Source of the DNA: Vibrio tritonius
GTDB taxonomy: Bacteria > Pseudomonadota > Gammaproteobacteria > Enterobacterales > Vibrionaceae
Assembly: GCF_001547935.1 (NCBI RefSeq)
Contig: NZ_AP014635.1
Span: 2,294,001 to 2,358,000, forward strand
Direction: 5' to 3'
DNA: 64,000 nucleotides
This document shows positions 33,429-36,492 of this stretch, piece after piece (within the stretch, counting starts at the first letter, position 1; each line of letters starts with the position of its first letter). The notes beneath the pieces were generated by a model, which was given only the letters and a program-made list of their open reading frames with translations, did no database searches and was not told where the DNA came from. The position numbers and the translations under genes are program-made.

Positions 33429-33779
33429 TTAGCTCATTAGCAATGGCCCAAGAGGGCGACCACCAAGAAGGTGCATATGAATATGATAAACTTCTTGGCC
33501 ACCAAATGAGTTGGTATTCACAATGAGACGATAGCCATCGGCTGCAATACCTTCTTGTTCTGCGATTTTTTTCGCTACGGTAAACATACGACCAAGAGCT
33601 AACTCGTCTTCTTCCTCAACGTCATTGACAGTTGGGATAAGTTTATTCGGAATGATCAAAATATGGCTAGGCGCGCGAGGGTTGATATCACGAAAGGCTG
33701 TCACAAGGTCATCTTGATACAAGATATCGGCTGGGATTTCTTTGCGAATGATTTTACTAAAAATGGTTTCTTCCGCCAT
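33429..33779 (-). CDS. hinT: HIT-family purine nucleoside phosphoramidase
   Basis: A 116-residue Hint-type hydrolase of AMP-lysine/phosphoramidate bonds. The histidine triad reads HIHMHLLGG near residue 99. The start [24 protein letters not shown] matches E. coli HinT. It heads the minus-strand cluster hinT - lipoprotein - ycfL - lpoB - thiK - ycfP, with 64 bp to the next gene. Confidence 0.95.
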
Positions 33780-33932: not shown

Positions 33933-34198
33933 TATACCCAAATGACCTCAAGATGCAGACTTCAGAGCTTCATCAACGAGCACAGGTCAAGCTCAATGAC
34001 GGAAGGAATGGTCATTCCCTTTCAACGTCATTTGGCGCAGAAATGGGCTTGTTGATGAGCTCCCAAGGGGCGAGTTGTATTCGCTCCTATGCTGCGTTAC
34101 CGATTTTCTACGTAGAATAACTATGTATTCAAATCGGTGCCTTGCCTATAAGCGAATACATTCTCGCTGAAACAGCATCTTGAGGTTATTTGGGTATA
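33933..34198. repeat. ERIC-like intergenic inverted-repeat element, 266 bp
   Basis: The element begins TATACCCAAATGACCTCAAG and ends with its near-perfect inverse complement, CTTGAGGTTATTTGGGTATA, giving terminal inverted repeats of about 24 bp and TA at both ends. It contains nested internal palindromes: GAGCTTCATCAAC / GTTGATGAGCTC, AATGAC...GTCATT, and ACCGATTTT...AAATCGGT. Terminal motifs and the GCTGCGTT core resemble the enterobacterial ERIC family; an ERIC form with an internal insertion is known from Vibrio. There is no coding potential. It is between hinT and the CARF-nuclease gene. Confidence 0.75.
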
Positions 34199-34247: not shown

Positions 34248-34413
34248 CCACTTATTGTTAATACCCCGTCAAAAGACACGGTTACTGTCAGTATTCTCAC
34301 AATAGGGTCTTGTTTTTTGCTCGAACCACCATTATATGAGTACCAAGCGCTTGCATCCTACCCTTTCGATACCTTCAGATTTTTGCAAGCCACACATGAG
34401 GATAATAATTTAG

Positions 34414-35577
34414 ATGAGCATTCATGTTGGCATTATTGATCAAGATCCTGTGAGATTGGTCACGCCGTTATTAGACAGTCGAATCGATTGTCAGCACATT
34501 ATTTTCGTTGGCGACAGCAACCAAGAAAGCATGTATCTCCGTTTACATACGGTACTGACTCAGCGAGGTATCGGGTCCGAATTTTTCGAAATTCCTTCAG
34601 GTACGAACATCTCGGAAATTAAACATAGTGTTCGTGGCCTAGTGGAAAGCCTTAAAGATCGTAAGCAAGAAATTCACCTCAATGCTAGTTGTGGTCTGCG
34701 ACACCGTTTATTAGCCATTTATGAAGTTTTTCGCTCCTATCACTGGCCTATTTTTGTCGTGGAACCGTCAAGTGACCAACTCTGTTGGCTCTACCCAGAT
34801 GCCAATGAAGATACACAAGTTCAAGACCACATCACTATTGCTGATTACCTCACTATTTTTGGTGCCCGCGGTGAGTTCGCCGAACAAACATTATCGCCCC
34901 AACTGGATCAAAAACTGTATGAGTTAGGTGAGCGCTGGGCAGGCAATGCGTTGGAATTAGGCCCTGGATTAGCAACGCTGAACTATCTTGCCACCACCTG
35001 TCGTAAAGAGCAGCGCCTTGATGTTGAACTATCCGAGAAACAACAAGGTTATCGTGAATTAAACATTCTCTTAGACGATCTTGTAGAAGCCGCTATCGCC
35101 ACATACGAAAATGGCGTACTCACCTTCGCTAACGAAGATGCACGTCGTTTTTCTAACGGTGAGTGGCTAGAAACACTGGTTCATAGCACAGTGAAACAAA
35201 TACAAGATGATATGCCAACCATTCAAGACCGCTCGCTCAACGTCCAAGTGTATCGCCAGCTTGGTGAACGAGAAGTTCGTAATGAACTAGATGTGGCTAC
35301 AGTTGTTAATAACAAACTGCATATTATTGAATGCAAAACTAAAGGCATGCGTGACGATGGCGACGACACCTTGTATAAGCTGGAATCGCTACGTGATCTT
35401 TTAGGTGGCTTGCAAGCGAGAGCGATGCTCGTCAGTTTCCGTCCACTGCGCCATAACGACATTACTCGCGCCGAGGACCTAGGACTAGCTTTGATAGGCC
35501 CAGACGAACTTAAAGATCTAAAGCCTCACCTAGCCCGCTGGTTTAAAGAAGCTGGCGGTCGTGAAGAAGAGTTATAA
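34414..35577 (+). CDS. CARF-domain PD-(D/E)XK nuclease of the Card1/Can2 (DUF1887) family
   Basis: A 387-residue soluble protein; from memory it is very close to V. cholerae VC1899, a structurally solved family member. Residues about 1-140 form a Rossmann-like CARF domain (start MSIHVGIIDQDPVRLVTPLL; ligand-loop segment LNASCGLRHR at 89-98). A linker/winged-helix region follows. The C-terminal domain (about 245-345) has the restriction-endonuclease motif: E291/D293 in NELDV and E306-C-K308 in IIECK. Relatives Card1 and Can2 are activated by cyclic tetra-adenylate in type III CRISPR immunity. No CRISPR array or cas gene is in this window, so the signal and target are unknown. It is monocistronic, followed by a terminator shared with fadR. 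Confidence 0.88.
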   Translation: MSIHVGIIDQDPVRLVTPLLDSRIDCQHIIFVGDSNQESMYLRLHTVLTQRGIGSEFFEIPSGTNISEIKHSVRGLVESLKDRKQEIHLNASCGLRHRLLAIYEVFRSYHWPIFVVEPSSDQLCWLYPDANEDTQVQDHITIADYLTIFGARGEFAEQTLSPQLDQKLYELGERWAGNALELGPGLATLNYLATTCRKEQRLDVELSEKQQGYRELNILLDDLVEAAIATYENGVLTFANEDARRFSNGEWLETLVHSTVKQIQDDMPTIQDRSLNVQVYRQLGEREVRNELDVATVVNNKLHIIECKTKGMRDDGDDTLYKLESLRDLLGGLQARAMLVSFRPLRHNDITRAEDLGLALIGPDELKDLKPHLARWFKEAGGREEEL

Positions 35578-35598
35578 TTTTCAGTAACGTCGATAAAC

Positions 35599-35630
35599 AA
35601 CAAGGCCCGCTGAGTGCGGGCCTTGTTATT
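35599..35630. terminator. Bidirectional terminator, CARF-nuclease gene / fadR
   Basis: The 12-bp stem AACAAGGCCCGC / GCGGGCCTTGTT with loop TGAGT is between two convergent genes. The T-tract is modest (TTGTTATTAT) but the stem is very stable. Confidence 0.8.
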
Positions 35631-35652: not shown

Positions 35653-36492
35653 TTAGCAATCATCTTCTGTAAAATTCGACGGCAACGTTTTCTTCATTTC
35701 ATTCCACAAATGAGCACTGGCGATTCCATAATGGCGAATCAAGTTAGGTAATTGTTCACTTGAACCGCTTTGGCACACAGCCAAAAGATCTTTGTAGAAA
35801 TTCAACGCCAATGCACATGACTGAGGGTTGGAGAAATAATAACTACCCACTCGATCATAGAGCTTTTTAAGGCCATTAAAAATCAAACCGTAAATCTGAT
35901 TTCCAGAATGAAATGCTAAACGTTGGAACAGCATATAGTCATAAAAGTTAAAGGTTTTCGCCACCAATATTTGCTGACGTTTCTCTTCATCTTTTTCGCC
36001 ATCATCTTTCACTTCTTGGGCAATTTTATCTGCATAAGGCGACTGAGAAACAAAAGCATCCCAAGACTCAGCACTTAATAAAGCCTCACAAGAGTCAATG
36101 ACATTTTTAATTGTGCGTTCCGAATTCTCACGGTTTACTTTGAAAGCATAACGCATGAAAATAGGGCTAATATTGGTACGAGCCGCTAAAAGGTCTTCCA
36201 CAATGCTGGTTGCGTTATCCGCATCTAACGTCATCAAGGTATCCAAAATATGAAGCCCGGAGGTTTCCATAAATTGGTTTACTTTAGTAGGTTTGCCGTG
36301 CTGAATGGTTAACCAACCATCTCGAGCTAAACGCTGTAATACTTCTCTTAGTGTCGTACGAGTAACACCTATCAATTCAGAGAGTTCTCGCTCGGCTGGT
36401 AGAATCGAGCCTGGGGGGAAACGTCCGTTCCAGATGCTTTCAATAATATATTTTTCTGCAAAACCTGCTGGGCTTTTTGCCTTAATGACCAT
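35653..36492 (-). CDS. fadR: Fatty acid metabolism regulator FadR (Vibrio form with insertion)
   Basis: A GntR-family regulator that represses fatty-acid degradation and activates unsaturated fatty-acid synthesis; acyl-CoA releases it from DNA. It has 279 residues against 239 in E. coli. The N-terminal winged helix ([20 protein letters not shown], about 31-50) is nearly identical to E. coli. An extra stretch of about 40 residues, roughly 139-179, interrupts the acyl-CoA domain; in V. cholerae such an insertion is known to add a second ligand-binding site. It is divergent from nhaB, as in E. coli. Confidence 0.96.

Follow-up and report, generated by a model that had tools for sequence, protein, structure and literature searches.

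The 64,000-nucleotide stretch of Vibrio tritonius DNA analysed here (contig NZ_AP014635.1, positions 2,294,001 to 2,358,000; hereafter the window, numbered from its first letter) carries a gene for an orthologue of the V. cholerae protein VC1899, which joins an N-terminal CARF domain to a C-terminal nuclease domain of the PD-(D/E)xK type. A preliminary description, made from the letters alone, had presented it as an orphan nuclease of the Card1/Can2 family that may answer a nucleotide signal of its own. The gene and the parts of its product are as follows; the limits of the CARF domain are approximate and were set after the description of Can2, where it covers residues 3-151 (PMC7969007).

34414..35577, forward strand: VC1899 orthologue, CARF plus PD-(D/E)xK nuclease, 387 residues, ATG start (open reading frame listing, structure and profile matches)
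34414..34863, forward strand: CARF (ligand-sensing) domain, about residues 1-150 (alignment to 1xmx_A)
34438..34455, forward strand: pocket motif of strand 1, D9-x-D11-P12-x-R14, with D9, D11, P12 and R14 invariant among orthologues
34678..34707, forward strand: ligand loop LNASCGLRHR (residues 89-98), replacing N-x-T-G-G-T-K (sequence, alignments)
34864..35130, forward strand: middle region, residues 151-239, strongly conserved at about 175-216 (orthologue alignment)
35131..35547, forward strand: Card1-type endonuclease domain PF09002, residues 240-378 (Pfam)
35284..35292, forward strand: catalytic E291-x-D293 (sequence, orthologue alignment)
35329..35337, forward strand: catalytic E306-x-K308 (sequence, orthologue alignment)

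Membership in the PF09002 (DUF1887) family is supported by a Card1_endonuc match of 210.4 bits (cut-off 26.4) over residues 240-378, by the N-terminal CARF domain and by the PD-(D/E)xK residues, which, like the ligand loop, lie where the preliminary description had placed them. The Pfam model for the CARF domain, PF23400 (CARF_Card1), scores 20.1, under its cut-off of 24.6; the N-terminal domain is nevertheless accepted as CARF because residues 1-382 align with the VC1899 structure 1xmx_A (E 2e-216), a near full-length match, and the corresponding domain of VC1899 is a CARF domain (PMC7969007, PMC6981274, PMC4012209). Weaker matches to Can2 (7bdv, 2e-26), Card1 (6wxw, 9e-7; also 6xl1) and a CARF-domain nuclease (8z4i, 4e-6) bring the structural relatives to five distinct sequences; the top PADLOC match is CARF4--CARF_PDDEXK, and no NCBIfam profile matched the protein. 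The V. cholerae proteins (P0086, P0091) are 83% identical to the window protein, and all ten pocket residues printed for VC1899 (D9, Q10, D11, R14, D34, L95, R96, V115, P118 and Q334; PMC7969007) are the same in both; the two are the same orthologue, and no notable difference between them was seen.

VC1899 was one of the earliest CARF proteins to have its structure solved (PMC7969007), binding of cyclic tetra-adenylate (cA4) by it was earlier expected (PMC6981274), and genes of its family outside CRISPR had been noted (PMC4012209). It has since been described as an orphan with a weak residual RNase that cA4 does not regulate, no DNA nicking, and a pocket with almost nothing in common with that of Can2; it was labelled 'cast adrift' and suggested to be a degenerate relic separated from CRISPR (PMC7969007). 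The protein, its orphan status and its missing cA4 response were thus already published, and the preliminary description was correct on this point without being new. The accessible portions of the literature naming VC1899 (also PMC3137634, PMC3974666 and PMC1462988) give it no cellular function. Relative to the literature examined, what is new is the near-universal, strongly selected status of the gene, the recognition of its pocket class as a group, and a lead from CorA and DHH genes at the loci of relatives.

The window protein shares with Can2 (7BDV) and Card1 (6WXW) the CARF and PF09002 domains and the same catalytic residues, but differs from them in that its genome lacks Cas1 and Cas10 and in that its orthologue VC1899 is not activated by cA4 (PMC7969007). 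That genome (two contigs, 100% complete) contains one PF09002 match and gave no Cas1 and no Csm1 match in profile searches, in which cas genes other than these, PF09002 and Cas10 were not sought. Five matches to the Cas10 palm were found, two of them over the cut-off; all carry GGEEF and are read from this motif as probable diguanylate cyclases, hence the genome appears to hold no genuine Cas10 palm. The window has no run of three or more exact 16-mers at 45-90 base spacing, consistent with the earlier statement that it has no repeat array. The gene is therefore neither part of a type III CRISPR locus nor close to one, the setting expected of Can2/Card1 effectors, and the objection that such a locus elsewhere might feed the protein does not apply in its own genome.

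Within the Vibrionaceae the gene is nearly universal: of 296 genomes, 290 contain a match with an E value no higher than 3e-101, which bears out its description as a vibrio core gene. There is one match in 276 genomes and two or three in 14, of which four were looked at: in G016 and G152 the matches are pieces of one gene, while G013 and G015 have a remote second copy. The G016 orthologue (locus L140) is split into two frames near residues 68-81. Several of the six genomes without a match are reduced, as their sizes of 1.0, 1.1, 2.1, 2.6, 3.1 and 4.4 Mb indicate. Outside the family matches are sparse: 32 of 295 genomes in an order-wide sample (23 in the family itself, nine outside) and 24 of 369 in a class-wide sample, where, besides the V. 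tritonius genome, identity reaches at most 43% over any stretch and at most 36% near full length.

The association with Cas10 follows a different distribution. No Csm1-type Cas10 over the cut-off occurs in the 296 family genomes; at E 1e-3 there are matches in 45, and for eight of these the E value is 2e-9 or less and the frame 581-805 residues long. Because the Csm1 model misses variant Cas10s (G013 bears a Cas10 and is not among the 45), these counts are lower bounds; for the V. tritonius genome, searches for Cas1 and with the palm model were added for this reason. Among the 35 genomes with remote matches (three from the family, nine from the order, 23 from the class), a Cas10 palm lies on the same contig within about 11 kb in 17, is convincing on another contig in eight, and is unconvincing in ten. 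The gene is thus mostly tied to type III CRISPR outside the Vibrionaceae and mostly not inside.

To assess selection we used 173 of 194 matching loci (21 fell outside the length and identity limits), giving 132 distinct proteins that are 61-95% identical to the query and amount to about 28 effective sequences. Among them 140 of 387 positions are invariant (weighted conservation >0.985), including E291, D293, E306 and K308, so that the ExK motif, whose loss among orthologues the preliminary description would have counted against its idea, does not vary. Five of the nine printed pocket sites in the CARF domain (D9, D11, R14, R96 and V115) are invariant, as is Q334, with P118 at 0.96 and L95 at 0.89; mean entropy is 0.49 at the nine sites and 1.27 over the domain as a whole (resampling P 0.013). 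The ratio of nonsynonymous to synonymous divergence (dN/dS) was computed by NG86 from pairs with dS 0.2-1.5; most pairs lie outside this range, and the pair sets differ and are in part small. Its median is 0.018 for the gene (98 pairs) and, by part, 0.025 for the CARF domain, 0.020 for the middle region and 0.012 for the nuclease. The neighbouring genes give 0.034 for HinT (221 pairs), 0.028 for FadR (13), 0.031 for NhaB (26), 0.022 for Udp (364), 0.033 for a 463-residue neighbour (80), 0.046 for YcfL (97) and 0.071 for DsbB (8). Distances of the gene are correlated with the distances found for each of the seven neighbours (rho 0.58-0.87; 0.82-0.87 for FadR, NhaB and Udp), as expected for vertical descent. 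The gene is under strong purifying selection in the Vibrionaceae.

These results bear on the proposal that the protein could be a stand-alone defence effector. There was no match to the gene in 50,697 phage records and one distant match (25%, on one plasmid) in 72,556 plasmid records. A pattern search of viral contigs, limited in its reach, gave 32 hits, none of which was confirmed as a relative. A mobile origin was considered and rejected on the phage and plasmid counts. The patchiness and mobility typical of defence genes were not seen in the 296 Vibrionaceae genomes or in the phage and plasmid records, and because the gene is near-universal, keeps distances like those of its neighbours and is nearly absent from phages and plasmids, a stand-alone defence role is unsupported. 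Instead, the gene seems to behave like a housekeeping or stress gene.

We compared the pocket over 18 core-orthologue rows and 26 others, and then over 120 further proteins. The catalytic E-D-E-K is unvarying in all compared rows, whereas the pocket falls into distinct classes. Most Cas10-linked relatives have S-x-Q-x-x-P(14), the loop N-x-T-G-G-T-K and Tyr115; the core orthologues have D-x-D-P-x-R(14), N-A-S-C-G-L-R-H and V115-x-E117, with a few changes at 95 and 98, and even the copy in the 2.6-Mb genome G001, 42% identical, retains D9, D11, R14, NASCG and R96. The window protein, with D/D/R14, CGLRH and Val115, shows none of the cA4-type features (Ser9, a TGG(T)K loop and Tyr115; the residues forming that pocket are defined in PMC7969007), which confirms the earlier remark that its loop is unlike TGGTK. 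A third set, here called NASxG, resembles the vibrio proteins in a loop without GG and in Glu or Asp at 117, and has mostly D or G at 9; it differs from them in lacking Arg14 in the compared rows, in its sporadic occurrence (any match in 6 of 196 genomes of one family) and in that some members lie in type III loci. Its hosts include Neiella, Thalassotalea, Pseudoalteromonas piscicida, Shewanella gelidii, Salinimonas and Thaumasiovibrio.

In a FastTree phylogeny of 164 whole proteins, 59 NASxG and 20 vibrio-type rows form one clade of 79 (support 0.987; 0.945 once two rows are added). The vibrio-type clade itself is supported at 0.999 in FastTree and at 98 on the nuclease half, and the VC1899 orthologues, with one chromosomal copy and the vibrio-type pocket, are monophyletic. 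When long branches, odd rows and the vibrio row P0186 were removed from a nuclease-half tree (leaving 62 of 166 rows, nine fewer than before), a single branch with SH-aLRT 99.8 separated 43 proteins without TGG-K, NASxG and vibrio-type together, from 19 TGG rows. With long branches left out, the nuclease half places the pocket class without TGG-K in one phylogenetic group. The pocket keeps most of its residues, yet its class is distinct from the cA4 class, and for these reasons the suggestion of a different nucleotide signal gains support: the sensor probably responds to something else than cA4, the ligand tried to date.

The explanation we favour, with moderate confidence, is that the gene encodes a domesticated Card1/Can2-type nuclease, strongly selected and gated by a ligand other than cA4 that is made without Cas10. 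A type III CRISPR effector nuclease would have been domesticated in or before the ancestor of the Vibrionaceae. The CARF pocket of the homodimer (a dimer is described for both Can2 and VC1899; PMC7969007, PMC6981274), with its two Asp, Glu117, Arg14, Arg96 and His97, would bind a small ligand whose production is independent of Cas10. By analogy with Can2, a dimer in which ligand drives closing and metal-dependent cutting of RNA and DNA (PMC7969007), binding may close the two nuclease domains on RNA, and perhaps on DNA too, with a metal-dependent cut to follow. Its likely task would be conditional cutting within RNA or DNA metabolism when the cell is stressed, more than phage defence of the classic kind. 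If this is true, the gene would illustrate the conversion of an immune effector into a housekeeping switch and would point to a second messenger outside CRISPR.

Several observations weigh against this explanation. The RNase activity measured for VC1899 is weak, with no DNA nicking (PMC7969007), and the ligand is a postulated one. The pocket is not fully fixed, since Q10 and D34 vary; conservation of its nine sites is just modestly above chance within the CARF domain, and conservation alone is no demonstration of gating by a small molecule. In matched pairs the protein distance is 1.17-1.25 times that of HinT, FadR and NhaB and 2.4 times that of Udp, while the gene is slower than YcfL (ratio 0.42), the 463-residue neighbour (0.42) and DsbB (0.64); the gene thus ranks lowest for dN/dS alone. 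Finally, the nuclease-half tree before pruning (residues 150-387, 71 rows) has no single pocket-class group, long branches being mixed in.

Of the alternatives, each of which we consider improbable, the one that survives best is a noncyclic RNA ligand, whereby the CARF domain would sense RNA ends or tRNA fragments and the protein would be a regulated RNase of RNA quality control. The precedent is RtcR, likewise a CARF protein outside CRISPR, which differs in being a transcription activator whose ligand is a tRNA fragment (PMC7790460). The weak RNase of VC1899 (PMC7969007) and the core-gene behaviour fit this idea; however, no RNA-repair gene was seen by eye beside the gene in the fetched family neighbourhoods, and the CARF domain of RtcR is called a divergent version (PMC7790460).

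Rated almost as highly is a special form of the favoured explanation, in which the ligand is a SAM-nucleotide, S-adenosylmethionine-AMP (SAM-AMP) or a relative: proteins without TGG-K would have arisen in type III systems that use SAM-AMP, and the Vibrionaceae protein would have retained that specificity towards a SAM or aminoacyl nucleotide of the cell itself. No SAM-AMP synthase is known to us from vibrios, though no search aimed at one was made. The idea comes from the loci of relatives. Three Cas10-linked copies without TGG-K occur among the fetched loci (in G1071, the second copy of G013, and G389), and two of them, in G1071 and G013, adjoin CorA and a phosphodiesterase of the SAM-AMP type; CorA of B. 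fragilis binds SAM-AMP, which NrN degrades (PMC10600005), whereas Can1-2 are described as cA4 effectors (PMC11229360). The acidic pocket would, moreover, suit a cationic sulfonium. The G1071 locus (L256, 295-10229) carries, on one strand, an NASxG CARF nuclease, then after about 400 bp a DHH protein of 299 residues, CorA (794 residues), Cas10 (609 residues) and RAMPs. PADLOC models match the DHH protein (C3a116, 5e-14; DHH_CorA, 2e-13), CorA (2e-37) and Cas10 (1e-24), whose palm motif is WGGDE, as in G013. In the remaining fetched loci tblastn at E 1e-4 detected neither CorA nor DHH, although for CorA the reach of this search is limited.

The same loci also argue against a SAM-nucleotide. In G1071 the DHH and CorA proteins are both left unnamed by Pfam, the Cas10 is below the Pfam cut-off, and the pocket of its nuclease lacks D11 and R14. 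The second copy of G013 (L184/L245) lies with a 575-residue Cas10, separate frames for a reverse transcriptase and for Cas1, a protein resembling DEDD (a weak match, E 0.0025) and pieces of CorA; it has neither loop type, sits on a long branch and is a poor member of the class. Its CorA gene (L184, 9467-12136) runs over several frames, being broken or misassembled, and three pieces match CorA separately. The G389 locus (L186/L243) has a Cas10 with GGDD, NE0113 and CARF8-TM, with RT-Cas1 and RAMPs recognized by eye, and gave no CorA match, and in G1069 (L257, 4235-9202) the neighbours of an NASxG CARF nuclease include a CARF protein of the NE0113 kind and ZorA. Since NE0113 relatives recur at TGG-type loci (L191, L192, L229, L241 and L244), cyclic oligoadenylate is indicated for G389 and G1069. 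The molecule sensed by CorA in III-D loci is left open and may differ from SAM-AMP (PMC12669027). SAM-AMP is therefore a lead and not a demonstration; it is drawn from two of the three Cas10-linked loci, and one of these two has a poor class member. The accessible portions of the literature on SAM-AMP with Can2, CorA and Cas10 contained no proposal of a CARF nuclease that reads SAM-AMP.

More doubtful again is the fuller version of this proposal, a CRISPR-free Vibrionaceae pathway in which an endogenous noncyclic nucleotide of the SAM-AMP kind would switch the Card1-type nuclease, with the NASxG class reading such a messenger. Even so, the distinct pocket class and the locus context give a concrete alternative ligand class to try. 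By eye, the copies in G434, G324 and G015 have no cas neighbour; the G434 copy (L187, 6749-9485), an NASxG CARF nuclease, follows a TraG/VirD4-like gene at a distance of 25 bp and has a TIR-like protein in its vicinity.

We give little credence to a constitutive housekeeping nuclease for which the CARF dimer is a mere scaffold. The cA4-independent RNase of VC1899 (PMC7969007) and the lowest dN/dS, found in the nuclease half, would agree with it, but the pocket sites are conserved above the CARF average and the activity in vitro is weak (PMC7969007). That the protein is a degenerate relic cut loose from CRISPR is very unlikely. The weak activity and missing cA4 response (PMC7969007), the G016 copy in two frames and the 14 multi-match genomes speak for it, whereas near-universal presence under strong selection, with dN/dS at 0.018 and an invariant catalytic site, speaks against 'degenerate'; VC1899 had been dismissed as probably a degenerate orphan when a single ligand had been tried, and the data describe a conserved, selected, family-wide gene. 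Least likely of all is an effector in trans of a cGAS/DncV-like nucleotidyltransferase (CD-NTase) of a cyclic-oligonucleotide-based antiphage signalling system (CBASS), or of another cyclic-oligonucleotide synthase: the search for Cas10 and CD-NTase genes that the preliminary description had called for found, besides no genuine Cas10, one CD-NTase in the V. tritonius genome, but this has an adjoining 2TM effector of its own, and SMODS exceeds the cut-off in just 22 of 296 family genomes. The pair (G000:C1:1858255; L204, 6256-8269) consists of a CD-NTase of 429 residues and a 2TM/SLATT-like effector of 238 residues; it lies about 470 kb from the CARF gene, no CD-NTase adjoins that gene (window 28-42 kb, by eye), and this CBASS was rejected as a signal source because it has its own effector.

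The surroundings of the gene were compared over 81 Vibrio sequences, namely the window and 80 named loci (the best 80 of 130 candidates); a neighbour was counted if it matched over at least 85% of its length within the available flanks, and gene names were assigned by eye.

33429..33779, reverse strand: hinT, divergent neighbour, in 78 of 81 Vibrio sequences
35653..36492, reverse strand: fadR, convergent neighbour, in 37 of 81 Vibrio sequences
34310..34338, forward strand: likely sigma-70 promoter TTGTTT-17-TATATG, by eye, with comparable boxes in the majority of 32 aligned Vibrio leaders
34348..34391, forward strand: 5' leader stem CGCTTGC / GCAAGCC, of whose seven pairs six or all form in 29 of 32 Vibrio leaders, with differing loop lengths

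The gene had been placed beside fadR as a general feature of vibrios. This holds for fewer than half of the sequences; udp takes that position in 32 and neither gene is found there in 12, so the fadR neighbourhood is not a rule, and hinT is the steadier neighbour. In other Vibrionaceae genera udp adjoins the gene in 11 of 14 core loci and yccS lies upstream at times. A conserved leader RNA was considered and dropped, since the folding energies of 125 orthologue leaders gave a mean z of -0.97, inside the span of -0.01 to -1.33 obtained for six neighbouring genes as controls; Rfam matches were only far under gathering scores, and no LexA box with at most one substitution lies upstream of the gene. 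The hinT-CARF intergenic region (window 33933-34198) contains a MITE-like (miniature inverted-repeat transposable element) inverted repeat of 24 nucleotides, 96% complementary, with 218 nucleotides between the arms and no second copy in the window. Between the convergent CARF and fadR genes, a hairpin recognized by eye (35598-35627, AACAAGGCCCGC/GCGGGCCTTGTT) is likely a terminator that the two genes share.
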